The notes under the pieces: generated by a model
What the model was told of the DNA's origin: nothing
Database searches by the model: none
Seen by the model: only the letters and a program-made list of their open reading frames with translations
Part shown: one piece after another, positions 2,009-56,200 of the stretch
Numbering within the stretch: the stretch's first letter is position 1
Layout: each line of letters starts with the position of its first letter
Source of the DNA: Plazaster borealis
Lineage: Eukaryota; Echinodermata; Asteroidea; Forcipulatida; Labidiasteridae
Reading direction: 5' to 3'
Length of the DNA: 64,000 bases
Assembly (NCBI GenBank): GCA_021014325.1
Contig: CM037473.1
Span: 15,004,696 to 15,068,695 of the forward strand
Made by a program: the position numbers and the translations under genes

Positions 2009-5000
2009 GTAATGACTAAGACAAGCATTTGAAATATAATTAAGATTAAAAAACAAAAACTTCTTGATTTTTTTTTTTTGGGGGGGGTGCTAGCAAAAAA
2101 AACAAAGTGTGTGTGTACATGGAGGTAATGGTGTGTACCTGTAGGACCATTCTTACCTCCACATGGTAGGACTAGGTAAACTCTGTAACCACTACATGCC
2201 ACTAGCCCTGGTAGGACGTCAGTCAGTGCCACTGCACTGACGTCCTGGGTATAAAGATCCTTTACATTACAAAATTTTGAGTAACATTTTAAAATATTTT
2301 TTACCTAATTTGAGACGCTGAAACCCCATTCACTTATTCTTGGTGCCTTTAATTACACTTTTGCTGAGTTCAAAACCTATCAAATACATCCATGAATGAC
2401 ATTGTTTCCGAAAATAAGTCCAAGTTGTGCACTGGCGCTGTGACTCCGTCGTGTTGCCGCCCGGAAGAAAAAGCGTTCAGTGTTACGGGTTAGACAGCGC
2501 CCTCTTTTGTGGACTTGGTTCCATGTCAGTTGAGGTTGTCGCAACGAATGTGTCAATTTCCATTTTATTTTCACAATAATTTCATCCAAGGATAAAATTG
2601 GCAATTCTGAATAGAGCAGGCGTAAGGTTCAGGACACAAGGAACATGTGAGTCACGTTTCAGCTTCCTCAAAAAGGTAAAAATATGATAAAAAATTGTTA
2701 TAAATTTTGTCGCAATGCCTGAGGACATTTATACCCTGGACTCCGTCGTGTTGTATGCAATGGAGGAGTCCAACCTGGGCTATTCATGCCACCAATTTAT
2801 CTCACTTAATTGACAGAATGTATACAGATGACAGAGGCACAGGCACTTAGAACGGCTACAAAGTTTCAAAATCATGAAAAATTAGCCATTTTCGGGTCTA
2901 TGTATGGTGGTCTTCACAATGCTGCTTACACTCCGTTTTAGTCACTTTGGATTTGGTTCGAGTGCAGTGTGCGCGCGAGAGTTCCGTCCGCGCGATGAAA
3001 TGTGCTCTTGAATTTACCAAATTTTTAAAATTAATGGTCAAAATTTTGGGTTTTAGCTACCAATTCCTCACAAGCACGAGGAATATTACAAAAAGGGAAA
3101 TGAAGTCCGACATCAATTACAAAATCAATTAAATCCCGTAAAAATTGGTGGCATGATACCGCAATTTTTGCTAACCCTCCATTCTCCCAACGTTCGCAGG
3201 ATGGAAGGTTCCGATTATCGCAACTATAAAAAGTGTGACTGAGTCGGTCACTTACTGAGTCAGACTGTGAATCATGATTGCTGCGAGGAGAGGGACCACT
3301 TTTTGAACTTTTTAGTTAAATATTTTGCACTTATTTTTGCCCACAGGGTTTACTTTTCTAGTGAAAAAGTGCTATCGTTGGTTTTTTCATTCATGTTAGC
3401 GACAAAACAAAAAATTTCTTATCTACCCAGATGAAGTTATGTTTTTAGTCATAATGATTGAAAAAGTTACTGTCAGATAATTCCTTAATGAAATATTTAC
3501 ATGTTTGCTCTCCCCCAAACAGGTGATGAGGAGTTGGCAGATTATTTGGAAAACGAGATCAAGTTGGAAAAAGACAGCCGGCAGTTTCCAACCATTCCAA
3601 AAATCCCAGACTTTAAACTGACGCAAGAAGACGCCGTGGCAACCCTGACAAAAGTCAATGATGGAGAAACGTAAGTGAAAAGTACCAATGAGTTAAAGGT
3701 ATCGTACACGTTTGGTAATGACTCAAAACAAATATTAGCATAAAAACTTACTTGGTAACAAGCAACGAAGAGCTGTTGATAGTATAAAACATTGTGAGAA
3801 ATGACTCCCTCTGAAGTGACGTAGTTTTTGAGAATGAGGTCATTTCTCACTAAAATAGTAAAAACTTCTTGCAAGAAGTTTTTATTCCTACCTGAAAGCA
3901 CACAAATTTGTACAACAGGGGTGTTTTTCCTTTAATCATTTTCTTGAAACTTGGATGACCAATTGAGCCCAAATTTTCACAGGCTTGTTATTTTATGCAT
4001 ATGTTGGGATACACCAAGTGAGAACACTGGTCTTTGACAATTACCAAAGTGTTCAGTGCCTGTAAAATAAAATATATTAAATGAAACACGTGTAGTGATA
4101 AATCTTTGTTTTCACTGAGGCCTTGAATGTCACAGGGGAGTCAGGCTTGATACTTCTTTCCTGTAAGGGCAAGGCAGTTTCTCCTTGGTAAAGGGCACCT
4201 CAATGAGGAAAGTGTAGATTTGTACTGGAACATTTCAAGGGGCACCGAGGCAATGACCAATTGCCTCCAAGCCTCATGAGGAATGGGGCCTGTACATAGT
4301 TTTGCTTCCATGTCCTTAGTCATTTTCCTGGTGCCTTGAGCATCGAGGAGGCAGTGACTGGTGATGCCACCATGATCGTCATTGTTTTGTTTTTCACACC
4401 CCTGGACCTGCCAAAAAGATTCAATGACAATCGTGTATTTTTTCATTGGGTTCCCTTGATATACAACAACAACAACAGGACTGCTGGATTCTAGAGTGAA
4501 GTTCAAGACATCTTATGTGTCGCTAAATATTTCTTTTGAACTTTTTTTTTCCCCTGCAGGGTGAAAGTTACCTTTAATTTGAATCATTCTGTTGAAGAAG
4601 AGCCCCAGAACGAAGAGGCAGAGCAAGAAGCTGGTGCAGCATCTCGGGTAATTACATAATTATCCTTCTTTTGGGAATTGGTGCCGGAAGTGGTTTTTTT
4701 GGGGGGGGTTGGTGCCGGAAGTGTGTTTTGGGAATTGGTGCTGGAAGAGTGTTTTGGGAATTGGTGCCGTCGTTGTAGGAGATTCTGTCCCCCCCGGATA
4801 TCTTGTCCCCCCCCAAACGGCAAACTGTGTACAAACTTCTTTTGAATCATCCTCCTTTAGCCCATGTTAATTTCCCATATGGGGGACAGAATATCCGGGG
4901 GACAGATTTCCCTAGAACACCGGAAGTGTGTTTTGGAAATTGATGCCATTAGTGTGTTTTGGGGATTGGTAAAATAAGATGGTTTGTGAGAAATCTTTTT

Positions 5001-24600: not shown

Positions 24601-27600
24601 ACATGAAAAAACAAACCTTTAAAAGTTTAAGCTCAATCAGTCATTGCAATCACCAGAAAAAAAGTGGGGAAAAACCTTAAGTGTTTTCACTGTTTTCAAA
24701 CATCGAGTTTTCGACTCATGAGATCAAAACTAATTGTTTTACTCATTTCTCAAAAACTACAGCACCTCAGCCAGTAATATTTCAAGGGAAGCTTTCTATC
24801 ATCATTATCTTTAAACCATGTAAGTTTAATGCAAATCTGTGAGCTTTTCTGTTTTGTGTTTTACCAGAAGTAGAGACCCTTTAAGATGAAGGCTCTCACT
24901 AGCTTAGATCCGTATAGTTACTTGTATGCCCGGATGAATATTGTCACATGTTTACATAAGATGTTATTAATGCGTATCCCAATTGAAATGTCCACAAAAC
25001 TGCAGAGCTTCTTCAAATTTATCTCGAATAGGGGGGCATATGATTCAAAGAAGAATCGCTTATAAAATTGCTGTGGGACGAGGGATGATAGGACGTGTGT
25101 GTGTGTGTGTGTGTAATTTCTCCCCACCACTTCAAATTGAGCTTGTGTATGCATTGCTGTGGACTTGGGTATCAATTCATTCTTAGTGATGACATGAGAG
25201 GTATGCTCAAGTGTTCACATAATGACACCTTATCTGCCACTTGAATCTATACGGGTAGATATTACATTCGTTAGTTATCATTGCATTCATAAATTGACCT
25301 GCATACATTTTTTGAAAAGTGAAATCAGTTGTGTAGTGACAGACATACTGTTCCATCTTGATCTACGCATTCACATGGAGTGCTGATCAAGTTGAAAAGC
25401 TTGAACATTATATGTTGCTTAAAAAGTGTTTTGCTAAGCAACAATTAGCCTGGTACCAGTTACGAACAATTATATGTCCCAGGTTTTTTTGGTTGGTAAT
25501 CCGTTTCTGCTAAGCTGAAGTTTTCCAAGCTCAGCAATTTCATGAGCTATAGTTGAAAAATCAGTTGTATAGTTACAGACATACTGTTCTATCTTGGACT
25601 AAACATTCAATTTATGTTTAAACTTCAATTTCCTTTCATTGACTATTCCGCAATGCTGCATAGTCCCCAATTGTATACATTTAATTTTACTTAAACATGT
25701 TTTATCATATTTTTATGAACTTTTATGTTCGCCCATTTACTATCATCATAACCAAATAAAAATTGACTATTCTGCAATGCTGCATAGCTCCCATTTGTAA
25801 AAATTTTATTTTACTTATACATTTTTTCCCCATATTTTTTATGAACTTTTATGTTCACCCATTTACTAACATCATAACCAAATAAACATTGACTATTCCG
25901 CAATGCTGCATAGCTCGCAATAAAATTTGTCAAAAAAAATAATTTTATTTACACCTTTTTTCATATTTTTATGAACATGTTCACCCATTTACTAACATCT
26001 TAACCAAATAAACAAGGGTCTTAATGGAAATTTGCTGATTTCAAATTTTGTATCTTATAAGTCATTGACAATGGCACGTTCACTGTCTACCAAACTCCCT
26101 AAATATTCTTTCTTCATGAGTTAACCACGTATATAGTGACATCAGTCACTGTATATATTTCCCTTGAGGAGATGTTATTTATAATAACATACTTTTTTTT
26201 TCTTTTTTCTTGTGAGGTATTTTTAACAGAATTGCGCAGTGTGGCCATGCAGTCAAATTTAACAATGTTCGTTTACAGTGCATAAAACATGACGTATGCG
26301 TTGGCCATGACAGTGTGAGACAATTATCCACTGACTTAATTGAGTTATAATGATGTATGCTTTTAGTGTATCAAAGAGAGACAGAGCATAAACATGCCGT
26401 CTGCAAAACCTCGCCTCCGGTTAACAAACTATACTCATAGCAAGTGAGTGATAAGTGATCGCGTGTTTCGCTCAATAAATAGTCCATGTTTGCACAAGAC
26501 AAAATTTGTTGCACTTCTCTGGTAATTTTCCCCAAATGTTGTCATCGAACATAGACAAGTGCACTAATGGGAACTCGGATGTGTTAATAATATTATAGAA
26601 TAATTAACTTGCAAACAGAATCTCAGATCGATGTTCTACTGAAGACCAAGAAGAGCATAATTATTAATAAGTAAGATGTTGAGTTGTTAGACAACCACCG
26701 GTTATTTACAGAACCACTACAAAATCATGATTGCTGGACTTTACCTTTAATAAATTTTGAACCTTGATCAAAGAAACTTAAAGGGAGCATCGTTGTTTTT
26801 AAGAGAGGAAATTAATTCCCATCCACTACTTTTAAGAGAGGAAATTAAATCCCATCCACTACTTTTAAGAGAGGAAATTAATTCCCATCCACTACTTTTA
26901 AGAGAGGAAATTAATTCCAATCCATTACTTTTAAGAGAGGAAATTAATTCCCATCCACTACTTTTAAGAGAGGAAATTCATTCCCATCCACTACTTTTAA
27001 GAGAGAAAATTAATTCCCATCCACTACTTTTAAGAGAGGAAATTAATTCTCATCCACTACTTTTAAGAGAGGAAATTAATTCCCATCTACTACTTTTAAG
27101 AGATGAAATTAATTCCCATCCACTACTTTTAAGAGAGGAAGTTAATTCCCATCCACTACTTTTAAGAGAGGAAATTAATTTCCATCCACTACTTTCAAGA
27201 GAGCACCATTGTTTTTAAGAGAGGAAATTAATTCCCATCCACTACTTTTAAGAGAGCACCGTTGTTTTTAAGAGAGGAAATTAATTCCCATCCACTACTT
27301 TTAAGAGGGCACCGTTGTTTTTAAGAGAGGAAATTAATTCCCATCCGCTACTTTTAAGAGAGCACCATTGTTTTTAAGAGAGGAAATTAATTCCCATCCA
27401 CTACTTTTAAGAGAGCACCGTTGTTTTTAAGAGAGGAAATTAATTCCCATCCACTACTTTTAAGAGGGCACCGTTGTTTTTAAGAGAGGAAATTAATTCC
27501 CATCCGCTACTTTTAAGAGAGCACCGTTGTTTTTAAGAGAGGAAATTAATTCCCATCCACTACTTTTAAGAGAGGAAATTAATTCCCATCAGCTACTTTT

Positions 27601-30600
27601 AAGAGAGGAAATTAATTCCCATCCACTACTTTAAAGAGAGGAAGTTAATTCCTATCCACTTCTTTTAAGAGAGGAAATTAATTCCAATCCACTACTTTTA
27701 AGAGAGGAAATTAATTCCCATCCACTACTTTTAAGAGAGGAAATTCATTCTAATCCACTACTTTTAAGAGAGGAAATTAATTACCATCCACTACTTTTAA
27801 GAGAGGAAATTGATTACCATCCACTACTTTTAAGAGAAGAATTTAATTCCCATCAACTTCTTTAAACAGAGGAAGTTAATTCATATCCACTATTTTATGA
27901 GGAAATTAATTCCCATTCACTATTTTTTAAGAGAAGAAATTAATTCCAATCAACTACTTTTATGAGAGCAAATTTAATCCCCATTCACTACTTTTATTAA
28001 AGAGAAGACAATATTTCCCATCCACTACCTTTTGAGAGAGGAAATTAATTCCCACCCACTACTTTTATGAGAGGAAAGTAATTCCCACTCAGCAGGCCTA
28101 CTTTTCAATACAAACACCATTTCTACCCAACTGTTAAAATTTCAACAAACTCAGTAGTTACGTTTTTTATGAAAATAATGGATTTTTAGGGCTTATTTAG
28201 ATTATGACAATCAAAATAAGCAGCGGTGATTTGTAAGTTTTTCAAATGCCATTTCCTTGACTTCTACAGTATTTTAAATTCTTCCCTTGAGGATTAGATG
28301 TCTTGCACTTTATAAAAGTGAGCTTTCAGACTGAAAAAACAATTAACTTGTGTTTAAAGTAACTATCACTCAGTCGTGTTTTCCTGTATACAGTGTTGAA
28401 GATCCAGCACGGCCCTTTCAGTAGAACTTCCTGAACTATAGATGTAAGGGATTTGATGCTGATTGTTATGATGCAGACTACACTATTGTATTAGTCTCCC
28501 ACATAGACCATGTAACCTGTGACATCAGAGCCACAGAGCCTGATGGACATCCTGCAGGCACAATTATTTATACACAGCCCAATGGAAGAACACATACAAT
28601 CTTATATATGGAGATTGCACTGTCTGACTTGTATCAACTTTTGATATGAAGAAAGGGGGCACATCTCAAAACTTGTTCAGCTGTTACTTGTATAACTCTA
28701 AAATTTATGTGGAAATTGTGAATGTGACACAAAATGTAAAATTTCCCATTATGACCAGTGTAGTATTGTCTGCCAGAAAGGCCCTGGATTGTACAAGGTC
28801 AATCCTTTTGAAAAAACGATGGTTACAAGGTATATAGTTACTCCAGTGTGATTCCCCCACCACATGGGCATCTGTGTCCCCCACACTAAGGCATCTGTCC
28901 CCACATCTTTAAAGTTGCCTCTTGAAGTCAAGGAGCTGCAGTGCCAATTCCCAAGAACCCCACCTATGTTCAGTTCACACTCCAAATGCAGTTCACACTG
29001 GAAAAGTGCACACTCAGTATGCTAACCCCGAGTTATCTCGCTTAAACCACCTGCTATTTCGAAGAGAGTGAAAAGAAAGTATAATCGTGTACTCGGGTTT
29101 ACAGCCATTTACTTACTTACTTACTTAGATTGATGGGAATGAATAGGTTAAACCTTTATGACCCCATATCCAATTTCTTTCCAGTATTTATCAATTCGGT
29201 TTTTGAACAGGTTAGTTGAGGCTGCGTTCACCACATGTGAAGGGAGGTTGTTCCATTCGGAAATAACTCTGATGGAGAAGAAGTTTTTCCTGCAGTTCAG
29301 CCCTCTCTTAAGTCCTGGTTTGCAAAGTTTTTGGTTAGGACCCCTGACTTTGAGAAGGTTGTCATGTCTCTGGAAAAGCTTGCTCTCCTCAATTCCTTCC
29401 AAGCCGTTTAAGATTTTGAATACCTCAATCAAATCGCCTCGTAGTCTTCGTGCTTCCAGTCTGTACAAGTTTAAATCTTGCAGTCTTTCTGTGTATGTTT
29501 TGTTTTTCGTTTTTGTTGTTCATGTGTTTTGATAATTCAGTCTGTATTCTCGTATACCTCCTGGTATTTAGGGTATAGCTCCTAATATCCCAAATGATTT
29601 TCCTCAATTGAAACTGAACATTTTCTACACTCGTCTCTCTATACAGATTTCTCTTTCTTTCTTTTGCTGCAGTGACCTTTTGAGAAATTCTTCGGTTTCA
29701 TCAACCGAAAGACATACACAAACAAAATTAACACTGTGGACATTAATTTCCCCCAACCCTTACCATCTCTTCTTCCTGGACATGTCTGTCGATATTGACG
29801 GCGGCGTAGACGCCATTGTCCCATCCTTGAATAGCGGCCGTTGCAGACCCGAGCCTGTAGTACGCATCGTCCCAGGTGTGGTAGCGTAGGTGGAATACTT
29901 GTCGTTCTATCTCACTCGCTGTCAGCGTAAAGACGTGACTCTTTGGCAGCAGCTACAGAAAATAATAGTATTTTCTGTATTTATTAATATAGTGTAATGA
30001 TACATCGTTGTTTAGGGAAGAAGACAAAGTGAATGTTGCATCGCGTGATTTTTCACAGAAAGATTAAAAAAATAGAAAAAAATTCCTCCAATGGAATGTT
30101 GACAGATGATGCTGTTTCAAAACATAAAACATAAAATACATTTGCGTAGTATGCCAGGCACGATGCACAAACGAAAAATTTTAAAAAGGCAAAAACATGT
30201 ATCATTTTATTGATATCAATTTAAGGTCTTTCCTTTGTCCCTCTAACTTAACACTCTCCATAGACTAAGCGCATGAAAAAGGGTGAGGGCAAAACAATAC
30301 AAAGGATTCCAATGTGAGGAAAGCATTGTTCCCTTTGTGTTCCTTTGTTCTACTGTCCCCGCTCTTCTGATAATACCATGACAAAATTATGTACTTGTAT
30401 AAATTGCAATTGCTGGTCGTGAGCTATTGTCAGGTCCCGACAATTATCCATTTCTATATTATTTTAACTGTAATAATCGTTGGCACATTGTTCATTGTCT
30501 CAAATGAAAGTTTACAACTTTCTGAACTATAAAAGAAAACAGCTACCTGCTATTTCAATATAGGCCTACCACTACCACGGCAAAAGAATTGGGCGATGCA

Positions 30601-33600
30601 TTATGCGAGTCTTTCTAATTGTAGTTTTGAAGAAACACCATTCAACCAGAAGCCATGTCTATAAATAGATGAACAGTTCAGGGCTCACTAATTGCCGGTT
30701 TCCACGTACTATGATACTCTCCTTATTTATTTGCCTGTCATGGAGTTTACATGACTTCAGATATTTCAAACACATTTCCCCCCCCCAAAAAAAAAAAAAT
30801 TAAAAAAAAAAAAAATATGTAGGCCTATCAACAAATATAAAACAAATTAATAAAAATAACTATAATAAATAAATAAACAAATAAATAAACAAAATCAATA
30901 TATAAATACCGGTAAACAAATAAATAAACAAATGAATGAATAACTAAATAAATAAATAAATAAATAAATTATAAATTAAAAAAATATACGAATGAAAGTT
31001 AGTATTTGCAGGACTTAAAGGTATCGTACACGTTTGGTAATTACTCAAAATATATGTTAGCATAAAAACTGACTCGGTAACGAGCAACAGAGAGCTGTTG
31101 ATAGTATCAAACATTGTGAGAAACGACTCCCTCTGAACATGGATTCCTACCTCCATGCTCTGAAGTAACGTAGTTTGTTAGAAAGAGGTAATTTCTCACT
31201 AAAATAATAAAAACTTCTTGCAAGAAGTTTTTATTCCTGTATCTGAAAGCACACAAATTTGTACAACAAGGGTGTTTTTTCTTTCATCATTTTCTTGCAA
31301 CTTCGATGACCAATTGAGCCCAAATTTTCACAGGCTTGTTATTTTATGCATATGTCGGGATACACCAAGTGAGAACACTGGTCTTTGATAATTACCAAAC
31401 GTGTACGATGCCTTTAAAACACCCGCCCCTGCATTTTTTTTTCATTTTTTCATTTGTATAATTTTTGACCGAACGCTTCCGGTTTATTTGTACGAATTAT
31501 TAGGATGTAGCCTATTTCTGTTTTTCGATGAATTCTTGAGACACAATACCCAAGAATAAGGAGATGATGTAACCATGGAGGTAGGAATTTAATTCATACC
31601 TCCATGATGTAACCCACCCAAAAATAATCCATGGAAGACCATGGAAGAACCCCGAGACACTGCAGGCACTGTAAAAACGCTCAATGTACGTTCCCATTCA
31701 TTGAATCTAACCATGATGATATAACGCAAATATGTTTCAGCTCTGTCTTAAGTGGTTTGTGGACGTTTCCAATCAACACGGATTAAATTTAAATTAACGA
31801 AAAATCAACTGCAGTTTTACGGCTATGGAATTCCCACAATATTATAGCGCAGTTAATGGAAGGTCTTAAGGTAAAACCATCTCGAGTGTATTATAGGATG
31901 TGGCGTATAAACCAGTGATGAAATCGCATTACTTCTGCATGGATGTATGATCGTTTTTGGCGCACTTTGTAATTCAATAAAATTTTAGCTGGCTGCATGG
32001 AAGGGGGGGTGTTTGCGTGTCACCTTTGATTCGCTTTTATTCTGGATGGAAACACCGGTGAAATCTTCCATTACCGGCTGTGGAAACTCTAGTCGTGTAT
32101 AGATTAAGAGGTAATGCACGGCATAAAGGGGCACACTGCTGGCTGGCAAAAAAAAATCAAACGAGGTTGAATTTCTTATTACCTTTTTTTCCTCTCGAGA
32201 ATAATTATGTGGGCCATACCGTCCTACTCGACAAGTAACTTGCTCATCCATTTGTATGTAATTTGATTTATGGTCGGTTGGTTAGTTGGTTAGTTTAATC
32301 TTGGCCCCAATCCTTGTGAGGTACCGGTAATCATTATGGAAGAGTTCGTTCATAAATAATTGCCCTCTAAATACACCAACGACACTCAATAACTATTGTC
32401 AGGAATTTGAGAGAACACCGGGAACAAACTGTTTAAACATTGTTTGTGCACAATATTACAATAATTTCAGACGGGAATAATTATATTTAGGACAATATTG
32501 GTAGTGTCGTGGTAGTTTTAAAAAGTAAGCTGAATTAAAAAAAATCATAAATTTCATATTTTGTTAAGTCTAAGGCCTACAATTACACATTGCACGGTTA
32601 CAATATTATTACCATCAGCTGATGACAGGCGAGGTTTATATAATAGAGCTGCTTTTAAACAGTAAATATTGAGACAAATTTTTGCTGGTAACCTTCTGGT
32701 AAGTAAAATTATTGTTTGTGCTTCAGCTCTATATGAAATTGGGCCAGACAGCAATTTTGAACATAATATAACATAGTTTAGGTGTTAACTTTGCATCGAG
32801 GATAAAGAACATTGTTTCTTATACCCTTACACCGATCTGTATCTCAGTACTTTTCCGAGTTCTGTGAAAAAATCCACAGGTAAATCACTCATGGTTGCTA
32901 TATTTGTGTATGAGTTAACACTTACTTGGCCCCCGAAGAAGTTTCAATTTGCTGCTTTGATCATGACGACACACCCCTTTAAATTAACCTTTTTTTATAT
33001 CGTGTGCCGTGCACCATCATGTTCTAATCTTTAAGGTCTATTGATCGTTCGCATCGACTAAAGTGTAGAATTAATTATACATTAAACATTTTGTAATTTG
33101 TCTCCCGCACATTAAGGGACACGTAATTGTCTTGGATCGGGCGAGTTGGTCTTAAAAAAAGCATTTGTAACCGTTTAAGTTATAAAATGCATAAGTTAGA
33201 AAGATGTTTTAAAAGTAGAATACAATAATCCACACAAATATGTCTCGAAATTGCGTGGTTTTCCTTTTACATCGTGAACAAACACGGTCGGCCATTTTGT
33301 GGAGTCAAAATTTTGACTCCACAAAATGGCCGACCGTGTTAGTCCCTTTAAGTCACGGGCTGCGGGATTATAAAGTACCGTACTTTCGTCAGCTGACAAA
33401 GCAACCTCCAATATTCTGCAGAGTTGCAATTTTTCAGACTGCATGGCTAAGTGTAATAACAAACGTCAGCAATTTCGTGACATTATCTCATCTATATCTT
33501 ATCCACTCCATCACGATTATGCATAATTCTAGAGATTCATCAATCCTGAACAAGTCAGTGTGGATATTGAGACAGACAATAATTGTTATACGAGGCCCTT

Positions 33601-36199
33601 ATCGCAGCACCGCGGGCTATTGTCTTTTTTAATAATGTCATATTAATGTCCCAATCAATTATTATTAAGTCATAGGCCTATAAAGACCAAATTAATGCAT
33701 GGTTTGTCTCCCATTAAACAAATTAAACGACAGGCACTCGTCTTCATCGATAAGAATAAAAAGGGAGAGCTTAAAAAATGTCAATCATGAAATTTGATGT
33801 ATTTTTTTGTTGGGGGGAAAAATCTTAAAATAATTGATTCGGAAAGCTTGTGACCCTTCTGATAAATAGTCATTTTTGTTTCTCTTCGATGAAATGTGTT
33901 CAACGTGATAATCCCTTTTCTTGCTTTACCATGCAAGGGTGATGTTTTGTAATTCTGTAAGCAAAAAAAGAAAAGCACCCAGAAAATATCTTTGTAATTT
34001 GACAGGGCTGGCTTTGCGAAATAAACTCGTACCATTTTTGGATGGTAACAACATCGAATGTCCATAAAAAAAAACATTTTGAAAGTTCAATCGTTAAAAT
34101 ATAATCCCCTCATGCTTACATACTCATGGGAGCTGGTCCTTCAATTTCTGCTTCACTCTTCGGTAAATGTGAGCTCCATTTTGTAATCATTTTTTTGTTT
34201 TACAAAGTAGCTTATATAATTAAAGACTGAATTTGATCTTTTAAACCTCTCGACAATAATGCATGTAAAATGGTCATCGAAGGATAAACATGCGCGCTAT
34301 TCGTTCCGATCAAGAACGATTTATTTATTATGAAACATGTCAGTAACTCCGAGCATTGACGTATATATACTAAGGGGTACCACCCTTGATGTCCGTGCCC
34401 CCCCCCCCCTCCCCTCGGGTGCACTCCATTGGGAATTTGCACTTTTTGGAGATTAAACATTACAAGAATAAAATACACATATAAGCTTTTATTAAGTAAT
34501 TTCTCTGTTTCGGGCAGACAATGTATTTAATTATACCTCCATGTCGGATTATCTTACAAAAATAAGTAAATGGCATTATAACGATGAAAGGGGGCTTTTA
34601 AAAAAAATGCAAACGGAAACTACAGTTGTAATTGGCCATAAGTGAGCCCCCTTCTGCCCCCCTGAAAGGTTACCCTATATACAGTTTCATCTCTGCCGAA
34701 CATAGCTTTTGGATAGCCCAAACATCAGGGATCTTACGTCACCACTTCAAGGCATAATAAACAGCAGACCGGTCTTATTAAAAAAATAATTTTATACAAA
34801 CGCGTTAACCATTATGATAAGTCAATGACAAACTCACCTCGTCTTCTGCTTTTTTCGAGGAGACAGAATCTGAGCAGAGAAAAAGAGATAGTCTCACAAA
34901 ATTAATTTATGTTTTGAAAACACTTTATATAGCCTACTAAAAGTAACTGCGATCGAAGTTATTATTTGTATCTTATAGTTGTGGAACCCCAGAACTATTT
35001 TATGGTATACGGGGCGGGTGAAATATGATATTTTTCAATACAGGTTATAATTACTGTGTTAATGATTTGTATCGTGTATATCACATCGTAATAAAGGGGA
35101 TATACAGTCTGGTTTAAATCGATCATCACCAGCTGGGGTGGGTGGGAATCAGTGTAGCAGAGGCCAATAGTTTTTGCAATCCACGATTTGTATCCATATT
35201 GGGTAAAGACAACGGGAACAAAATCACAAACGTTCACGGTGGATCAATACAAAAAACATGGTCTAATTCATGGCACTGCTTACCACATGATTTATACGGT
35301 GGCCATAAAGCTCGTCGATCCTGTGGGCTGTAAATTCAGAATTCCACGGTGAGCGTGCCGAGGTCATCACACACTTTGAAAGAAGACTAGGTTTTGATTT
35401 TTTTTTTTTTTTGACTAGGCCTATACCTGTTTAAAAAAATGCCACGGTGTGATGTAGTTTTTTCCCTCCAGCGGCAGGATGGATTTCTTTTTCACACTAT
35501 GCCATTAACAATTTTTTTCTTTCTGCCAAAATGAATCTTTCATGATGTCACTTGTAATTGTTTAGATTTGCAACAATAACATAAGCATTTAGAAACCTGA
35601 TGTGCCAATTTGTTCGGGATATTATTTCATGTCGTTCCGACAAGTATACTATACACTAAGCTTGAATTTCAGAAACGCCAGATTTTACCCATAGTTTTTA
35701 ATTAGCCCTATCAGTTTGGACCTACTTTTAAAGGAACGTTACAGAACTGGTGATTAAAATTTTCTTTAACATCACAGTTTTACATAAAACTTACACGGTC
35801 TAATGATGATGATAGTAGAAAACATCCCTAGAAATATTTCTGTCTGAAATGCCATATTTGATGAGAAATAAATAAAACTAATTTCCGATTGGAGTTTATC
35901 GCTCATGAGCGTTTTATTCATGCATTGTATAACACATGCAAATTAATGTGTAATCGGTTTTTCACTATTTTCTCGTGACCCAGATGGCCGATCGATCTCA
36001 AACTTCTACAGGTTTGTCAGTTTATGTATATGGTGGATTATATAGAGTGCTTACACTGTTTTGTTAGCAAAAACCAATTCTGTAATGTTCCTTTAACTTT
36101 TTTTCTCTCTCTCATTTAAAAGTTACCTCTTGGTCGGAGTTTCATGGAGTCAACACCTGCAGCTCTATTCGGAAAGTCGTTTCTCCTCTTTCCTTTCAT
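18087..36199 (-). CDS. Stand-alone PAW-domain protein with long C-terminal tail (NGLY1 C-terminal domain relative)
   Basis: Six minus-strand exons (36199-36127, 34869-34838, 29952-29764, 23163-22983, 20301-20141, 18656-18087) join with matching phases to 402 codons; a further 3' exon must carry the stop, since the last donor (CCG|GTAAGT) is strong. Residues ~36-212 align by motif with the PAW domain of peptide:N-glycanase: FHLRYHTWDDAYYR, IQGWDNGVY, VYLTRKSGHREASISWK, GLVVDSIQAL, then GDSSHDCQEQTQLLYQ and PLDIIITLK. In NGLY1 this domain binds high-mannose glycan and follows a PUB domain and a transglutaminase-like core. Here an in-frame TAG precedes the ATG in the first exon, so neither is present. 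Residues 1-35 are basic then acidic; residues 213-402 are Ser-, Lys- and Glu-rich, probably disordered. PAW is known to occur outside PNGases, notably in worm proteins. A role in glycan recognition is inference only. Confidence 0.7.
19740..19905 (+). mobile_element. S1 SINE, 5'-truncated
   Basis: Starts near the B-box region (GGGTTTGAATCCCACCCG) and runs through TTACACACACTGGTGTATGG to CAATGTAAATTTAACATCTA and TTAAAT. Confidence 0.6.
19961..20135 (+). mobile_element. tRNA-derived SINE family S1, best copy
   Basis: The tRNA-like head TCAGTGGTCTAGTGGTAAGA (A-box-like) and B box GGTTCGAATCC (20021-20031) are followed by a GATTTTTTTCACAGGACTCG tail. No CCA end and a poor acceptor stem, so this is a SINE and not a tRNA gene. 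Its 3' end abuts the exon 5 splice donor of the PAW gene. Confidence 0.7.
20141..20301 (-). CDS. PAW gene exon 5
   Basis: Acceptor CAATCAG, donor GTAACA. Encodes YVANGWQTIYLIAYLSGDSS, then QEQTQLLYQDYLDVVDDHNT and FPLDIIITLK, the end of the PAW fold, phase 0 at the 3' side. An S1 SINE starts only about five bases into the downstream intron. Confidence 0.82.
20350..20640. mobile_element. Decayed TTAAAGG-type MITE with internal duplication
   Basis: Starts TTAAAGGTATTGTACAGGAT. The block CTGATTATGAAGTTCATA-ACTAGAACCTTGTTTTT, with CCTGGGAAATATTT-CCTCTGAAATGAAGTC, occurs twice (about 20413-20500 and 20522-20605). Related to 17815-18053. Confidence 0.55.
20870..21575 (+). mobile_element. tRNA-derived SINE family S2, split by family-A MITE
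   Basis: B box GGGTTCGAATCCCAGCC near 20928, then CTTGTGTCCTTGAGC, AAAGAACCCAGAACACTTAG, CTACAGGTTTATTCAGGCTT. After the 368-bp insertion it resumes GTTCACTTTCTCGGTTTCAT and TACCAGAAAT. The unsplit relative at 59120-59405 reads GTGATTAAGTTCACTT across the same point. Confidence 0.7.
21153..21520 (+). mobile_element. TTAA-flanked MITE, family A copy 3 (clean insertion)
   Basis: 368 bp, ends AGGCACTG and CAGTGCCT, TTAA on each side (21149-21152 and 21521-21524). The SINE it entered has a single TTAA at this point in other copies, so the duplication is real. TTAA with duplication is typical of piggyBac, but a TA-duplicating origin cannot be excluded since TTAA contains TA. Confidence 0.85.
22075..22250. 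mobile_element. Family-C-related MITE
   Basis: GAGCCCAATTTCATAGAGCT on the left; AAGCAGGAAATATTGCTTAA, GACACCAGTCATAGATGGTA and GCTTAAAGCAGCTCTTTGAA inside. Diverged copy of the 56580-56762 type. Confidence 0.5.
22327..22688. mobile_element. MITE family D (CAGGGCTCGAATTT ends), copy 2
   Basis: 362 bp. Inverted ends CAGGGCTCGAATTT / AAATTCGAGCCCTG, flanked by AAAGC on both sides, a 5-bp duplication as in the hAT-like element at 11835. Subterminal AAGCCC-GTGGTCTTGTGGAATT is present near both ends in inverse sense. Confidence 0.65.
22690..22872. mobile_element. Family-C-related MITE
   Basis: TTACCAGAATAAGGATACCA, GTGACTGGTATCCTGCTC and AAGCAGCTCTATGAAAGTGA with GCCC. Same subfamily as 9160-9346. 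Confidence 0.55.
22983..23163 (-). CDS. PAW gene exon 4
   Basis: Acceptor AATTCTGCAG, donor GTTTGT. 60 codons plus one base: VYLTRKSGHREASISWKVDL, IDTGLVVDSI, then GGIVTYDIVS. The YL-R, ISWK and VDSI positions are the clearest PAW signature. Confidence 0.85.
23164..24536 (-). other. PAW gene intron, repeat-derived
   Basis: About 23910-24075 (GAGGGCGAGGCAATTTTCAT, AAAGGGCACTTCCATTG, AGGGGCACCAAGGCC, TGGCCGCCGGGGTCTCCGTG) recurs in reverse at 42085-42275 and, diverged, at 4104-4270 and near 15140-15260. AACATGATAAAGGTCTATAA at 24216-24235 is an end of the element type at 43887. No gene seen. Confidence 0.45.
24537..24880 (+). mobile_element. TTAA-flanked MITE related to families A and B
   Basis: TTAA (24533-24536), GGGAGTTTATACTTTTGGTA, the family-A block CTCACTTGGTGTATCCCAAC, then TTCACTGTTTTCAAACATCG and a right end GAGACCCTTTAA. 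It combines features of A and B, so the two are subfamilies of one group. Confidence 0.65.
25636..26012 (+). repeat. ~125-bp tandem repeat, three copies
   Basis: TTGACTATTCCGCAATGCTG with CATAG begins at about 25638, 25764 and 25888. Each copy ends with TTCACCCATTTACTAACATC-like sequence and AACCAAATAAA. The second and third copies are more alike than either is to the first. Confidence 0.75.
26786..28092 (+). repeat. 33-bp minisatellite with 53-bp higher-order units
   Basis: About 35 copies of a 33-bp unit (TTTTAAGAGAGGAAATTAAT plus TCCCATCCACTAC). Between about 27190 and 27540, six units carry an extra 20 bases (GAGAGCACCGTTGTTTTTAA), making a 53-bp compound unit. Copies from ~27640 on are increasingly diverged, the usual pattern of array edges. 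Because 33 is divisible by 3, the first dozen units keep a frame open from 26757 to 27218 (LLLREEINSHP repeated). I take this as a by-product, not a gene. Confidence 0.9.
28091..29108. other. No recognisable gene or repeat
   Basis: Intronic to the PAW gene on the opposite strand. Short open frames only, without family features. Confidence 0.4.
29109..29505 (-). mobile_element. LINE 3' end (CR1/Jockey-like reverse transcriptase C-terminus), 5'-truncated
   Basis: The minus-strand frame 29468-29148 reads YRLEARRLRGDLIEVFKILN, then KVRGPNQKLCKPGLKRGLNC and RKNFFSIRVISEWNNLPSHV with VNAAS-NLFKNRIDKYW. This is the conserved tail of non-LTR retrotransposon ORF2 proteins (RRLRGDLIE...FFS-RVI--WN-LP). 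A frameshift near 29465 joins it to TERLQDLNLYRLE. The 3' end runs into a (TAAG)n tail (complement of 29109-29127), as in elements ending in short microsatellites. Dead copy inside the PAW-gene intron. Confidence 0.8.
29764..29952 (-). CDS. PAW gene exon 3
   Basis: Acceptor TTTTCTGTAG, donor GTAAGG, 63 codons in phase 0. Contains FTLTASEIERQVFHLRY and GWDNGVYAAVNIDRHVQEEE, matching the segment at the core-PAW boundary of NGLY1 (HLRY..., GWENGV...). Confidence 0.82.
29953..31014. other. Repeat-derived AT-rich intron
   Basis: 30105-30450 is a diverged copy of the 16680-16980 repeat. 30780-30975 is low-complexity A-rich and (TAAA)n / (AAAT)n sequence. Confidence 0.5.
31019..31413 (-). mobile_element. 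TTAA-flanked MITE, family A copy 4, itself carrying a 20-bp insert
   Basis: TTAA at 31015-31018 and 31414-31417; ends AGGTATCGTACACGTTTGGT / ACCAAACGTGTACGATGCCT; central hairpin intact. At 31138-31157 a 20-bp stretch absent from the other copies interrupts the CCCTCTGAAGT block and is flanked by CTCTGAA on both sides. Confidence 0.85.
31131..31164. mobile_element. 20-bp micro-insert (CATGGATTCCTACCTCCATG)
   Basis: Insert at 31138-31157, nearly palindromic at its ends (CATGGA...TCCATG), with 7-bp direct repeats CTCTGAA (31131-31137, 31158-31164). Six other family-A copies supply the empty site, so this is a true insertion and not divergence. Confidence 0.7.
31566..31614. mobile_element. 31-bp palindromic micro-insert with 9-bp direct repeats
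   Basis: The insert 31575-31605 begins ATGGAGGTAGGAATT and ends AATTCATACCTCCAT, a near-perfect palindrome. GATGTAACC stands on both sides (31566-31574, 31606-31614). Nothing between the two arms could encode a protein. Confidence 0.7.
31615..33280. other. Mostly unassigned intron sequence
   Basis: About 32640-32745 is a family-C-related fragment (GAGCTGCTTTTAAACAG ... GCTCTATATGAAATTGGGCC). 32790-32905 is a truncated S1 SINE in reverse. Otherwise nothing recognised. Confidence 0.45.
33281..33340. repeat. Perfect 60-bp palindrome with no spacer
   Basis: 33281-33310 (AACACGGTCGGCCATTTTGT then GGAGTCAAAA) is followed immediately by its exact reverse complement to 33340. Centre AAAATTTT. Both strands therefore translate to the same peptide here. 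It resembles two fused transposon ends. Lies in PAW-gene intron 2. Confidence 0.95.
33341..34837. other. No recognisable gene or element
   Basis: AT-rich intron of the PAW gene. A short homopolymer C run lies near 34400. A TACCTCCATG motif near 34536 resembles the micro-insert core but lacks direct repeats. Confidence 0.4.
34838..34869 (-). CDS. PAW gene micro-exon 2 (32 bases)
   Basis: Bounded by TCTGCTCAG and GTGAGT. One base from exon 1 plus these 32 gives 11 codons, DSVSSKKAEDE, and keeps the frame into exon 3. Confidence 0.55.
35732..36092 (+). mobile_element. Family-B MITE, complete
   Basis: 361 bp between TTAA (35728-35731) and TTAA (36093-36096). Ends AGGAACGTTACAGAACTGGT / ATTCTGTAATGTTCCT. 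The middle has a hairpin-like GCTCATGAGCG. It sits 30 bases from the donor of PAW coding exon 1. Confidence 0.75.
36127..36199 (-). CDS. PAW gene coding exon 1
   Basis: The start codon is the complement of 36197-36199; translation MKGKRRNDFPNRAAGVDSMK then LRPR, phase 1 at donor GTAACT. The whole exon extends to 36248, behind an acceptor TTATTATTTTCAG, so at least one 5' UTR exon lies upstream. A TAG 15 bases before the ATG, in the same frame and exon, and G at -3 support this start. Another ATG in a different frame upstream would be a short uORF. Confidence 0.55.
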
Positions 36200-36248: not shown

Positions 36249-37764
36249 CTGAAAATAATAAAAGCATAACATTTCATGCTCTAAATTAATTATCTTCCGT
36301 GTATAACGTAAAAATACATGCAATAACGAGCTTTAAAGAACGGAAAATAGAAACAGGGTCACTGAAGCTGGTCCCATGCCAAGCTCAAGCTTAACCGTTT
36401 TTTTGTTATGGGTTAAATAGGCCTATTGTGTCGAAAACGTGATAAGCACATACTCTTTACTACTAATTCTATTGGAAATGTTTCTGTCATTGTTGAATTC
36501 GTCTTGGCAACTACGGTGTTGACGTTATATAAATAGGCCGAGGCCTATATATATTTTTTTGTATAATACCCATTTTTAGATCATGCTTTGTGCTATGGGT
36601 CAGAGTGCGTCACGTGATCCTGTTTTATTTTTACTTGGAAAATTAATTCACATTGCACCCCCTTGATGTGGGAGTTTGCTGAGTTCCCTTGACGGGAAGA
36701 TCATGTAAACAAACACACAAACCAAATGTACTAAAAAACCCATAGCAACCAATGTTTATTTACCCAGCCATAACCAGACATTTTTCACTTGGGGGGAGCG
36801 GGGGTAAAGAGATGTTTTTGTGTGTGTTTTCATTTATTTATTGTGTGTGTGTGTGTGTTTGTTTAGTTTTTCACGAGTACCACCTCCCCTAAAATAAACA
36901 ATGAAGATACAATATTATGACTGAGGGGGGAAATATCGAGCACACAATGTGTAGGCCTACGTCTGCTGCGCGGGAACAGCGAATAGCAACAAAAGAGTGT
37001 TGCACGCGAAAATTAGCAGTCGTCACTCCCACCATTACAATAATAATGTACGATCATTGTGTATTGCGTACACAGGTAAAACAAATTTATTGTGTGTCGT
37101 TTGGCAAGCGCTAAACAATTTTAATTGCCCCTTCCTTACGTTTGGTGCACAGCATTCATTTGAAATCTGACTGAAGATTAATACAGGTGCGATGGTAATT
37201 AATTATAATATTAAAACATCATGTGTAATTTGTGTTGCACAAAACGATGAAAGTGCTGGCACACAAAGAACGCCTAGTTTCCTCGCGTGTGTTTTTTTAA
37301 TTGAGTGGCAAGTTTAATTATTGAATCGAATTAAAAATTTGCGGAAACATGTCTTTTTCATTTTCACTTGGTCCTTGGGACAACTTTTAGAAAGTTCAAT
37401 GCCTGGATGTTCATACAGAATAGATTTGTAGGTTTTTTCAGCAGGATGTGTTACTATTTTTCTTCAATTTTCTTTCATAATAAATTAGCAAGAGTATTTA
37501 GGCCTACCTGTTTTTTAGTAAAAATAAAGGGGGGCTTGCTGAAATTAAACGGAATCGGATGCAATCAGATCAGATGAAACACCGAAAAAGTTGTAGAAAA
37601 AATAAGTTTGAGTCCCCAACATTAATAAAATTTGTGATAGGCCTAATTGTTAACAGGTTTAACAAAGTTGATATATTATTGGCATAGACACAAACTTATA
37701 ATATTAATTGCATATCAAACTTGAATGAATTTGAAACCTAAAATTACAAAACAGACAGCAGTAA
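36249..37764. other. No recognisable gene
   Basis: AT-rich sequence with a GT microsatellite near 36840-36860 and several TAGGCCTA octamers. No coding exon found on either strand. Confidence 0.4.
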
Positions 37765-37801
37765 TCTCTTTTTGTAAGATTTGTTGGCTCTGAAAAGAGC
37801 C
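37765..37801 (-). terminator. Histone H2B 3' processing signals (stem-loop and purine box)
   Basis: On the minus strand the stem-loop GGCTCTTTTCAGAGCC (complement of 37786-37801) lies 30 bases after the stop codon, followed by the purine-rich AAAAAGAGA (complement of 37765-37773) that pairs with U7 snRNA. This marks a replication-dependent, non-polyadenylated histone mRNA. Confidence 0.93.
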
Positions 37802-37831
37802 GGTTGGTTTGGTGGCGTACAAATACACCGT

Positions 37832-38209
37832 CTATTTGGAGGTGGTGTACTTGGTGACAGCCTTGGTTCCTTCGCTGACGGCGTGCTTGGCCAGCTCACC
37901 GGGCAGGAGGAGACGGACTGCGGTCTGGACTTCGCGGCTGGTGATGGTGGACTTCTTGTTGTAGTGGGCCAGGCGGGAAGCCTCGGCGGCAATACGCTCG
38001 AAGATGTCGTTGACGAAGCTGTTCATTATGCTCATGGCACGGCTGGAGATGCCGGTGTCGGGGTGAACCTGCTTCATCACCTTGTAGATGTAGATGCCAT
38101 AGCTCTCCTTTCTCTTTCTGCGTCTCTTCTTGTTGCCGCCTGGCGGTGCTCCCTTAGCCTTACCGGCCTTCTTCTGTCCCTTTCCACTTGCACCTGGTTT
38201 AGGAGGCAT
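37832..38209 (-). CDS. H2B: Histone H2B
   Basis: Intronless, 125 aa. The start [20 protein letters not shown] is chosen over an in-frame ATG 29 codons upstream, because that one lies at the TATA box. Basic tail with [18 protein letters not shown], then the histone fold ([40 protein letters not shown]) and the C-terminal helix [20 protein letters not shown] ending KYTTSK. The ubiquitination-site lysine region AVTKYTTSK is intact. It pairs with H2A in the nucleosome and is transcribed divergently from the H2A gene 416 bases away. Confidence 0.98.
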
Positions 38210-38625
38210 GATGCTTGCTTGTCGATTAAATATCGGAATGGTGGGTCTTGAAATTTCGCAGTATTTATAGTTTTCAATATGCAAATGATTATCCAAAACG
38301 GGCTTACCTACTCTACACCTCTGCCCGCCTTAAATGTACCGCTCTAAAGGACCCACAATGATTGGCTATTCGTTGCACACGGCACTTCAGCTCCTGGCTG
38401 AAAACGTAAGATCATTGGCTACGCGTTGCACACTGAGTAAAATGTATAGATATTAGTGCGGACGTCGTACAGATCACTTTCCAAACAGACACGAATTGAT
38501 TTCATTGGTTGACAGAAAATCCGGTGAAACCACGGCTGAAACCATTGGTGAAACCTATAAAAGCCAGCAAACCGCGGATAATTCAATTTTCTTGTTGCGT
38601 TTCAACATCAACAACACTAACAATC
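38210..38625. promoter_or_regulatory. Divergent H2B/H2A promoter
   Basis: H2B side: TATA-type CTATAAATAC (complement of 38261-38270) and, nine bases further upstream, the octamer ATTTGCAT (complement of 38279-38286), the classic H2B element bound by Oct-1. ATTGG (inverted CCAAT) at 38361 and 38414 lies in two similar modules (ATTGGCTA-CGTTGCACAC). H2A side: TATAAAA at 38556-38562 with ATTGG at 38504 and 38544. Spacing suits coordinated S-phase expression of both genes. Confidence 0.85.
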
Positions 38626-39003
38626 ATGTCTGGACGTGGAAAGGGAGGAAAGGCACGCGCTAAGGCCAAGAGCCGATCTGCAAGAGCTGGTCTGCAGTTC
38701 CCCGTAGGCCGTGTCCACCGCTTCCTGCGCAAGGGTAACTACGCCCAGCGAGTTGGAGCCGGTGCCCCGGTCTACTTGGCTGCCGTCATGGAGTACTTGG
38801 CCGCTGAGATCCTCGAGTTGGCCGGTAACGCCGCCCGTGACAACAAGAAGACAAGAATCAACCCCCGTCATTTGCAGCTTGCCATCCGCAACGACGAAGA
38901 GTTGAACAAGCTTCTCAGTGGAGTCACCATCGCACAGGGTGGTGTACTGCCCAACATCCAGGCCGTTCTTCTGCCTAAGAAGACCGCCAAGGCTGCCAAA
39001 TAA
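38626..39003 (+). CDS. H2A: Histone H2A
   Basis: Intronless, 125 aa, starting [20 protein letters not shown]. Shows the histone fold [20 protein letters not shown], the acidic-patch residues within [26 protein letters not shown], and the docking region [15 protein letters not shown] ending TAKAAK. The short C-terminus without an SQ motif or macro domain marks canonical H2A and not H2A.X, H2A.Z or macroH2A. Confidence 0.98.
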
Positions 39004-39031
39004 GCGCTGAATTCTCAGCTTCAAACCAACC

Positions 39032-39068
39032 GGCTCTTTTCAGAGCCACCACATCTTCAAAAAAGAGA
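39032..39068 (+). terminator. Histone H2A 3' stem-loop and purine box
   Basis: GGCTCTTTTCAGAGCC at 39032-39047, identical to the H2B stem-loop and 28 bases after the stop, in ACC...ACCACA context, followed by CAAAAAAGAGA as the downstream element. Confidence 0.93.
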
Positions 39069-39367: not shown

Positions 39368-39769
39368 AGGCAGTGGACACTATTGGTAATTACTCAAAAT
39401 AATTATTAGCACAAAACCTTACTTCGTATCAAGTAATGGGGAGAGGTTGGTAGTATCATGGAGGAAGATATGGTAGCATAAAACATTGTGAGAAACGGCT
39501 CCCTCTGAAGTGGAGTAGTTTTCGAGAAAGAAGTAATTTTCCACGAATTTGATTTCGAGACCTCAAGTTTAGAACTTGAGGTCTCGAAATCAAGCATCTG
39601 AAAGCACACAACTTCGTGTGACAAGGGTGTTTTTTCTTTCATAGTTATCTTGCAACTCCGACGACCGATCGAGCTCAAATTTTCACAGGTTTGTTATTTT
39701 ATGCATTATGTTGAGATACACCAAGTGAGAAGACTGGTCTTTGACAATTACCAATAGTGTACACTGTCT
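39368..39769 (-). mobile_element. TTAA-flanked MITE, family A copy 5 (variant centre)
   Basis: TTAA at 39364-39367 and 39770-39773; ends AGGCAGTGGACACTATTGGT / ACCAATAGTGTACACTGTCT. The central hairpin is a different one, GATTTCGAGACCTCAAGTT with its complement (39549-39596). Carries a micro-insert at 39457-39470. Confidence 0.8.
39448..39479. mobile_element. 14-bp micro-insert CATGGAGGAAGATA
   Basis: Relative to the sister element at 43180-43563, 39457-39470 is extra. It is flanked by TGGTAGTAT and TGGTAGCAT, a 9-bp direct repeat with one mismatch. Confidence 0.55.
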
Positions 39770-49730: not shown

Positions 49731-50017
49731 TAATGCTTACTGACGTTTGCAACGGCCATGCGACACAGTGGAAGTCATCATTCATTCAAAAAAAAAACTC
49801 TAAATTTTAATATTTCCTCCATGAAATATAAATCCTATATCAGTGGAGGCGAAATGAAGATGTTTCCGTGTCATCAATTACGGAAGATAATGTGTCGATC
49901 GATCAGCAGGCAAGAAGTGACAGGTGTTCGGGTAAACACCTCCGCAATATAACCAGCGGCAAAAAACCCAGTGCCTGTATTAGTGACGCTTGATTCGTGA
50001 TTAGTATCTTTGCTAGT

Positions 50018-50048
50018 TTTTACCATTCCTACCTCCATGCTTTTACCA
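50018..50048. mobile_element. 15-bp micro-insert TTCCTACCTCCATGC
   Basis: Insert 50026-50040 lies between perfect 8-bp direct repeats TTTTACCA (50018-50025, 50041-50048). The core TACCTCCATG is the same as in the inserts near 31 kb. Confidence 0.6.
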
Positions 50049-53258: not shown

Positions 53259-56200
53259 GTAAATCCAAGACGTTATTTTATATTTGACGGTTCTGTTCAA
53301 CCGTGAGTGTCCTGACTTGTGATTTAACCATGAAAATGGGACGCCTTGTTTGCTTCCAGTTTCGTGACTACGTTTGTGTTGAATGTGTTCATGATCATGC
53401 ATGCCCATGCATACGAACAGTATCCAAAAGTGGTTCACTCGTGACGTTGTCATCATTGATCGTCATAATAACGTCACCAATGAATTCACGTGGTAATATT
53501 TATGGGTTCTCGGTGTTGGTTATTCATTAAAATACTTATTATCAATACTATGCTTGAAATTAATTAATTAAAGAAAGGGGTTGGGTTTATGTAAAAATGT
53601 AATGTTCGAAAATTGAGGGGGGGGGGGGGTGCGCTCAACATTATTTTGTCTTTTGATGACATACCGTAGGAGGTCCTGTTTTCAGGGCGTCCCTGAAATC
53701 GATGCAAATCTTTTACCTCTCTGCGCGCGATGTAAACAGTCCCTAGATACAATTTTTGTGGTTTGACTTGCCAAGCAAAGAGTCTCCTCTCCTTTGACCA
53801 AAACTTAGAATTATGTGAGGCTCCACTGGCAAGTTGCACTTGTATTGCAAAAATTTGTGGTATTTTAGGCATTTCTACAAGGTACAAAAATATGTCATAC
53901 TGTCGGGCCCATAAAAAAAATTTTGCCCGCTGAAAAAGTTTCATCGAACAATTTTTCAATTCACAATTCACGATGATAAAATCATGTGACTTAAAATTCT
54001 GCTGAGCATTCTGGGGAAAAAAATACAGAGGCTTAAAGAAGCCATGTGCCTTATATCATTTTCCAACAGTCTGGAGAATTTTTTTTTAAACCCTCATATC
54101 ATTTATTATTAATAAGGGTCATTAATAACATTAAAATTTAAACATTGGCTTGGTGATTCAAATATCACTGTTTATTGATATGCTTTATTATAAATGTTAA
54201 GAAACATAAAAAGATTCAAAACTTTTTAAAAAATCAGATTTGAAAGCCAAGACTTATTGACACTTTTTTTTATTATTTTTTTTTAATAGTTTTTGCAAAT
54301 TACCATCGTAATTTTTAAAATTAAATAAAAAATATTTTGAATAAAATGAAGACAACTGCTGGCTATAGAGTCATACACAACGTCTCACAGAACACTTGAA
54401 GTCACTGCAGATGTTTCTTCTGCGTATGGCTTCACCAGGGCACCATACTTTCTTGTTTGCCTCGAAAACAGGTAAAACTCAAAACAAATGGGACGCTATT
54501 GAAGTCATCGAAGATCGGTGCGTGGTGTGAAAGTTTCAATGTCTATCAAGTTTTAATATATTTTTACATACTTCTTATAAACAAAGGAAGGTAATTAGGG
54601 CATCAGTTGATATATGGCATCATTATTTTTTTTTAAATTTAAAGAAAAAGGCATAGTACATCGAAAACCGGACACGGGAGGATATATTGTGCATGCTGGT
54701 CGAGCCTGAGTTAGAGAGTAATTAATGGGGAAAAAAATTGGGATGAATGTAACAATAACCTTACAGTAACACTAAAAGTGAAATTGTCGATGTGTGCGAT
54801 CAGTTGATTGCGTTGACGGTCGATCCAGCTGCTCTCTATATAAAGCCTGGTTCATACTTCCTGCGAATGCAAAGCGAATTTGGACGTCACTTTGACGTCA
54901 CAGCTCTGTTTTTCGCTGCGAATGTTCGCAGGAGTTGAGTACAGCTCAACTCCTGCGAATTGCTCGTTGTGAATTTGTAACGTCAACATTCGTATCGCAT
55001 TCGCATTCGCAGGAAGTATGAACCGGGCTTAATTCACAGAATGGACCTATCGCGCAAAGTTATCGACCGATAGCACACATTGACCGAATGCGCCCAACAC
55101 AATAACTTGGTATTAATTTACTCATCCGTGATTCATCCATCATTAATGGATCCATATTCATATCATGGAGGTAGAAATAAGAGAGTTAAAAACAGAACAA
55201 ATAAACCATCAGCCCATTATTAATTAACCTCATTAAAACCTCTGGCTATTCTATACAAAATCATTGTTGCCATCAGCAGGGCTGTTTGCAGCAGATTAAA
55301 GCTCATTTTGTCGTGTTTGTGAACGGGGATTATCGTCAGACAAACAGGCCGTCCCATGCACATTCCTCAATACTGAAGTAAAGATCTCTGCTTACCTTGT
55401 ATGATACACAAATTGACAACTGGGAAATTATGTGGTATTTTGAAGGGATGTTTTAAAATACTCGGAGTCATTTCCAAAACAACTTAAAACAAAAAAAACA
55501 GAATCAAGTGGAGCATTATTTCCCCTTATACAATGTGTGTATAGCCAATTTTGTCCTCAAAATATTTTTAATATAAAATATTGCTTTTATCCAAAGTTTT
55601 TCACCAGATTGGTAAAGGGTCATTTGTGCTTGCGTAACCGTAAGCCATTCCACAAAACAATGTGGCTCCTGCCGAGGGCCTTGCTGCTGATTTATAATTA
55701 CATTCCTATTTAGCCATTGTAAGACTTTAAAATTCAACATTAACAGAGCACCCACGGCTTGAGAGTTCAATAACTGAAGTGGAGTTTTTATGTGCAATCA
55801 GTTCAAAATAGTTTGTAAGACTAAGATATGTTAAATTTGCATTGGGGATAAAGAATATTATTTGGTTTTACCTATACACCCAAGTGTGTAAAGCACTGTA
55901 TACTCGGTACTTTCCCTGAGTCCTCTGAAAACAAAATAGGCATATTACTCGGGTGGGATTAGAACCCACAACCTTTGCCATTCTTGAGCAGATGCCTTAC
56001 CAGTACCACAAGACCACCGAGATTGCCTGGTAACCAGAGGCAGTACAAATCCCATATTTTCGCTCTTGAATGGCATAGGTCATGGGTTCGAATCTCACCC
56101 GAGTTATTTGTAAGATGTAAAGGCAAACCCTGACGTCAAATTTTCATGTTTTGTCATTTCAGAGATGGAAAGTAAAGGAGGGACAGACGGCTTTTCAGCG

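Follow-up and report, generated by a model that had tools for sequence, protein, structure and literature searches.

The window, the whole 64-kb stretch of Plazaster borealis DNA analysed here, contains a divergent H2A/H2B gene pair (37762-39073) in which each gene carries a histone 3' stem-loop; these two stem-loops were the only RNA families found in the window at the gathering threshold. Among 120 of 7,989 matches listed for the H2B frame (37835-38329), the best named full-length one was from Patiria miniata (94%), next to Asterias rubens (90%) and an unnamed protein (97%), matches that point to an asteroid as the likely source. A reading frame at 57962-58234 resembles an exon of a ubiquitin-conjugating enzyme, with a UQ_con match that was placed there by eye. 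Repetitive DNA includes a tandem array at 26797-28087, in which the 33-bp unit TTTTAAGAGAGGAAATTAATTCCCATCCACTAC is interrupted by a variant unit of 53 bp, and a repeat containing GGGCCCAATTTCATAGAGCTGCTTAAGC, of which numerous short copies, dispersed and inverted, lie between 56582 and 63237. The same stretch holds six very short inserts, each lying between two copies of a short direct repeat; they are listed below with the target copies written on either side of the insert proper, and no strand is assigned to any of them.

2111..2137, unstranded: insert 1, GTGTGTA + CATGGAGGTAATG + GTGTGTA; insert proper 2118-2130, 13 bp
2141..2172, unstranded: insert 2, GTAGGAC + CATTCTTACCTCCACATG + GTAGGAC; insert proper 2148-2165, 18 bp
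31131..31164, unstranded: insert 3, CTCTGAA + CATGGATTCCTACCTCCATG + CTCTGAA; insert proper 31138-31157, 20 bp
31567..31613, unstranded: insert 4, ATGTAAC + CATGGAGGTAGGAATTTAATTCATACCTCCATG + ATGTAAC; insert proper 31574-31606, 33 bp
39450..39479, unstranded: insert 5, GTAGTAT + CATGGAGGAAGATATG + GTAGCAT; insert proper 39457-39472, 16 bp
50017..50046, unstranded: insert 6, TTTTTAC + CATTCCTACCTCCATG + CTTTTAC; insert proper 50024-50039, 16 bp

All six inserts obey one common rule: a 7-bp target is followed by CAT, 7-27 more bases, ATG and the second copy of the target. The inserts proper measure 13-33 bp (n = 6) and share the core GGAGGTA/TACCTCC, which is altered by one base in one of them. 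The two target copies are exact at four of the six sites and differ by one mismatch at the remaining two (inserts 5 and 6). Insert 4 is a near-perfect palindrome that carries both ends. An earlier, sequence-only reading of the window had named two inserts, at 31138 and in the region of 31575, and had pointed to four related sites with direct repeats at 2119, 2148, 39457 and 50026; all of them were found in the sequence, the direct repeats included.

When read in the CAT...ATG register, the repeats are 7 bp long at all six inserts. With the register ignored, the longest exact repeat is 8 bp at insert 1 (GTGTGTAC), 7 bp at both insert 2 and insert 3, 11 bp at insert 4 (ATGATGTAACC), 6 bp at insert 5 (TGGTAG) and 8 bp at insert 6 (TTTTACCA, reached by a two-base slide). 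The boundary is fixed without sliding only at 2148 and 31138, where the repeat is exactly 7 bp; because sliding is possible at the four other inserts, 7 bp is the reading common to all rather than one forced site by site. The direct repeats previously described as 7-9 bp long are all 7 bp in the CAT...ATG register and 6-11 bp as longest exact matches without it. The 9-bp repeat GATGTAACC described at insert 4 is present, as part of the longer 11-bp repeat.

Inserts 3 and 5 sit in two copies of one interspersed repeat that occurs seven times (BLAST matches, E up to 1e-15). At the site of insert 3, the six other copies show CTCTGAA once and no insert, in line with the earlier description of an insert that duplicated CTCTGAA inside a repeat whose other copies are empty. 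The site of insert 5 is likewise empty in six other copies, where a single target position reads ATAGTAT or ACAGTAT; the two sets of empty copies overlap, as both belong to the same seven-copy family. At the base that differs between the two targets of insert 5, the left copy matches the paralogues, which indicates that the right copy changed later. The empty-site comparison that the earlier reading had asked for in relatives was made on paralogous repeat copies, for two of the six inserts (3 and 5), and came out in its favour there; no paralogous copy of the surroundings of inserts 1, 2, 4 and 6 was found in the window.

We compared the inserts with shuffled and with real-sequence controls. 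The string TACCTCCAT occurs seven times in the window, 0.37 occurrences being expected, and the 15-base end CATGGAGGTAGGAAT, itself derived from the window in which it was counted, gave five matches with at most one mismatch, as compared with 0.02 in shuffles. A scan that made no use of the core and asked for X7 CAT...ATG X7 around inserts of 10-34 bp returned four exact cases, each of which contains the core (mean of 0.07 and maximum of 1 in 60 shuffles); when inserts of 10-60 bp were admitted, the result was again four exact cases versus 0.16 (100 shuffles). With one mismatch permitted, eight cases were obtained, six of them with the core, and the shuffles yielded 1.15 overall and 0.03 with the core. 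In the real-sequence control, the 64 complementary end triplets gave 21 matches (TCC 6, CAT 4, AAA 4, six others 7); once the matches in tandem arrays had been removed by hand, CAT still accounted for four and the other 63 triplets combined for five. When the ends themselves were required, with two mismatches tolerated in the ends and one in the targets, a scan of insert lengths between 10 and 300 bp recovered only the six inserts and one 145-bp row that reuses the left end of insert 4. The scans require both target copies, and a scar that had lost one of them would go uncounted. The observation of the six inserts is confirmed.

Four of the inserts can be assembled from a prefix and a suffix of the inverted repeat CATGGAGGTAGGAAT(TT) with 0-1 mismatch, and the other two fit poorly. 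In inserts 1, 3 and 6, a prefix of the end CATGGAGGTAGGAATTT is followed directly by a suffix of the complement of this end, with zero mismatches; since this end was drawn from the inserts themselves, the decomposition is a description more than a test. Insert 1 combines 10 nt from one end with 3 nt from the other, and insert 4 combines 17 + 16 nt with one mismatch or, alternatively, 17 + 17 nt with a one-base overlap and two mismatches. In ungapped comparison with the end, insert 5 shows three mismatches and insert 2 is poor (nine mismatches), fitting by eye if a 2-base extra stretch and one change are allowed. The internal junctions are of five different kinds among the six inserts, CATTC-TACCTCC being shared by inserts 2 and 6. 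No insert retains more than 17 + 17 nt of end sequence: all six are at most 34 bp long, the longest being 33 bp. End positions 16-17 are present only in insert 4, which alone comes near the 17-nt limit, so that the stagger deduced from this limit rests on one case. The inverted repeat starts with CA, and insert 4 has CATGGAGGTAGGAAT at each of its two ends, apart from one difference. Termini beginning with CA also occur in other superfamilies, and this start is therefore weakly diagnostic for the P superfamily.

It is likely that the six inserts are excision scars of an unseen cut-and-paste transposon of the P superfamily, an assignment to superfamily that we infer from the anatomy of the scars and from the target. 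An element with this inverted repeat would have inserted and duplicated 7 bp. Its transposase would then have cut one strand at the 3' ends of the element and the opposite strand about 17 nt further in, so that each flank kept a 3' tail of 17 nt of end sequence, and end joining would have trimmed and fused these tails, with both target copies and at most 17 nt per end being kept. The scars produced in this way would be inert and immobile. The five different junctions, the shortest insert of 13 bp and a build equal to that of published P-element repair junctions favour such scars over elements that move at their present size. The target duplication, the shared core and the empty paralogous sites, in which the sequence-only reading had recognized the signature of mobile DNA, hold as such, whereas mobility at the present size is disfavoured. 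Its suggestion that the ends of a larger element became fused once internal sequence was lost comes close, with cutting out plus end joining favoured as the route; a new class of minimal mobile sequence, which it had also proposed, is not needed.

According to PMC7776569, P transposase cuts one strand at the 3' end of the element and the opposite strand 17 nt further in, giving 17-nt 3' tails; the closest known system is the set of Drosophila P-element excision junctions, in which such tails are repaired by alternative end joining with polymerase theta. In flies lacking Rad51, both 8-bp targets were retained in 44 of 66 sequenced junctions (PMC2895639, Table 1) and part of a target was lost in 22 of the 66. 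The length between the targets, as excerpted from the same paper, was 17-32 bp in 26 junctions without added bases and 7-44 bp in 18 with added bases, and a similar table of P-excision junctions appears in the excerpts of PMC5466332. Like the inserts, the Drosophila junctions keep both targets, hold remnants of both ends and show short junction overlaps. The sizes overlap as well (13-33 bp here, 17-32 bp in the 26 isolates that retain both targets and lack added bases), and the junction CATGATGAAATAACATG, found between both targets in three isolates, is built like insert 1, in which one end is largely kept and the other reduced to a stub. The element end in the window begins with CATG, as does the Drosophila P end, and differs after CATG; the targets are 7 bp here and 8 bp in the Drosophila P element. 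Furthermore, the inserts are known from genome sequence with their parent unseen, whereas the Drosophila junctions were made by assay in Rad51-lacking flies.

The target duplications, 7 bp in register (four exact, two with one mismatch), fall within the 7-8 bp of the P superfamily. Galileo, a member of this superfamily in Drosophila, has 7-bp targets (7-8 bp are given) with the consensus GTANTAC in the excerpts of PMC4168063. Scored against GTANTAC, the six targets reach 21 of 36, compared with a mean of 9.7 for random 7-mers, a value attained in 1 of 200,000 draws. The test was chosen after the targets had been seen and took the left-hand target wherever the two copies differ; of 64 palindromic motifs, GTANTAC and GTCNGAC share the top score. 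The inserts have 7-bp duplications in common with Galileo, and their targets score high on its GTANTAC preference. Galileo is known from elements with long inverted repeats, not from scars, the word 'footprint' being absent from PMC4168063, and it is likened to the inserts by targets alone. Zebrafish Pdre2/THAP9, in its excerpted descriptions, represents the P superfamily outside insects and has short, 13-bp inverted repeats; its targets are 8 bp rather than the 7 bp seen here, and excision by zebrafish THAP9 in fly cells gave larger flanking deletions. THAP9-like genes with a P-element transposase domain are reported from a sea cucumber, and genes of this class from the other echinoderms compared (PMC13228809).

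Excision by another cut-and-paste superfamily that likewise leaves end sequence behind, such as a hAT with 7-bp targets, a Mutator-like element or Dada, is an unlikely source of the inserts. A 7-bp target alone is compatible with hAT, families of which with 7-bp targets are cited as a query example in the excerpt from Repbase, and the left-copy targets, with T at position 2 in all six and A at position 6 in five, are compatible with the excerpted hAT motif nTnnnnAn. However, hAT excision is described in the excerpts by hairpins on the flanks and a random footprint, cut-and-paste footprints in general amounting to a few nucleotides; a short footprint of this type would be free of 10-17 nt of end, whereas inserts 1, 3, 4 and 6 keep 10-17 nt of at least one end. 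Excision of the Mutator-like Muta1, as excerpted, is mostly precise with donor targets, and 1-4-bp deletions predominate without them; the 8-9-bp targets and mostly precise excision of Mutator-like elements contrast with the 7-bp targets and imprecise scars in the window. Retention of 10-17 nt of an end is absent from the excerpted descriptions of both hAT and Muta1.

We consider it improbable that the inserts are mobile units that insert and transpose at their present length, whether as ultra-short internal-deletion derivatives of a transposon or as a palindromic mini-element of ~33 bp. Target duplications, the shared core and empty paralogous sites would suit such an element, as would the near-perfect palindrome with both ends in insert 4 and the junction CATTC-TACCTCC common to inserts 2 and 6; against it stand the five different junctions in six inserts and the shortest insert, which at 13 bp is without most of one end. 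In P elements, internal transposase-binding sites are needed for movement. That P elements carry such sites besides their ends (excerpts of PMC7776569) is a further point against the mini-element. Quite improbable, too, is gap repair after excision in which copying of the template stopped early and left very short, internally deleted elements: partial copying plus end joining yields most P products in wild-type Drosophila (excerpts of PMC2895639), but a broad range of retained lengths would be expected, and none of the six inserts exceeds 34 bp, no further insert appeared up to 300 bp, and nothing longer was convincing in a looser scan to 9 kb. An origin without any transposon, through chance resemblance or template switching, is hardly credible; single short palindromes between repeats are found elsewhere in the window, yet the target rule combined with the shared end exceeds both the shuffles and the real-sequence triplet control.

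No parent transposon with the ends seen in the putative P-type scars was found in the 64-kb window. The scan paired near-matches (at most two mismatches) to CATGGAGG and CCTCCATG that were less than 9 kb apart and had 7-bp targets with at most one mismatch; it gave 15 rows, none of which, besides insert 4, was convincing when judged by eye. The nearest candidate, at 23751-24055 (305 bp), has an exact TAATTCC on both sides, and its two ends mismatch each other. A Pfam scan of 60 of the 64 stop-to-stop fragments of at least 90 aa detected no transposase domain, including no THAP or RNase H-like domain. Another of the 60 fragments, not placed on the window, matched PAW. The string CATGGAGGTAGGAATTTAATTC gave 0 matches in viral contigs, and three matches to CATGGAGGTAGGAATTT outside the window, each a single end (at most two mismatches in the retrieved stretch), were read as chance. 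Other scar families, sought as inserts whose 4-base ends are complementary and which lie between repeats of 6-9 bp, were represented in the window by isolated cases only.

Tentatively, the scars may constitute a major, overlooked dispersed class here, with P-type excision and end joining being so frequent that scars far outnumber copies. Repeat annotation normally detects the elements that remain in a genome, and common repeat finders miss inserts as short as 13-33 bp. The majority of P-excision products recovered from wild-type flies arise by partial copying and subsequent end joining rather than by simple joining (PMC2895639), so that simple scars could fill a genome only where joining is common. 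Titles and abstract openings in a partial coverage of the literature contained no description of natural genome-wide P-type scars. If the scar-rich reading were true, the six scars in 64 kb, with no intact copy found, would form a dense fossil record of departures, from which the cut position of the transposase and the repair habits of the host could be read. Provided that six scars per 64 kb, observed in one window here, are typical, they would amount to a natural record of echinoderm transposon departures and of germline end joining, and the predicted sharp edge at 17 + 17 nt would make a staggered cut measurable from sequence alone, outside Drosophila.

Two further sites carry one end only:

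34527..34543, minus strand: one-sided end TTAATTATACCTCCATG, then TCGGATT; best left target match within 100 bp has 2 mismatches
55164..55178, plus strand: one-sided end CATGGAGGTAGAAAT, with TTCATAT before it; best right target match within 100 bp has 3 mismatches

The end at 34527 is a possible candidate for a scar minus its left flank, and that at 55164 a possible candidate for a scar minus its right flank. By eye, the 34527 end has three further bases in common with insert 4, internal to the 17-nt limit; if these are not due to chance, 20 nt would have been kept, beyond that limit. At 30039-30093 lies a 55-bp CAT...ATG insert with exact 8-bp repeats, GAATGTTG, on both sides and the right end AAATTCCTCCAATG (0.03 per shuffle for this type, in one of ten tests); it may be a related scar or short element, or a product of chance. 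In addition, a 16-bp palindrome, AGTGACATCAGTCACT, flanked by two copies of GTATAT, is located at 26129-26156.
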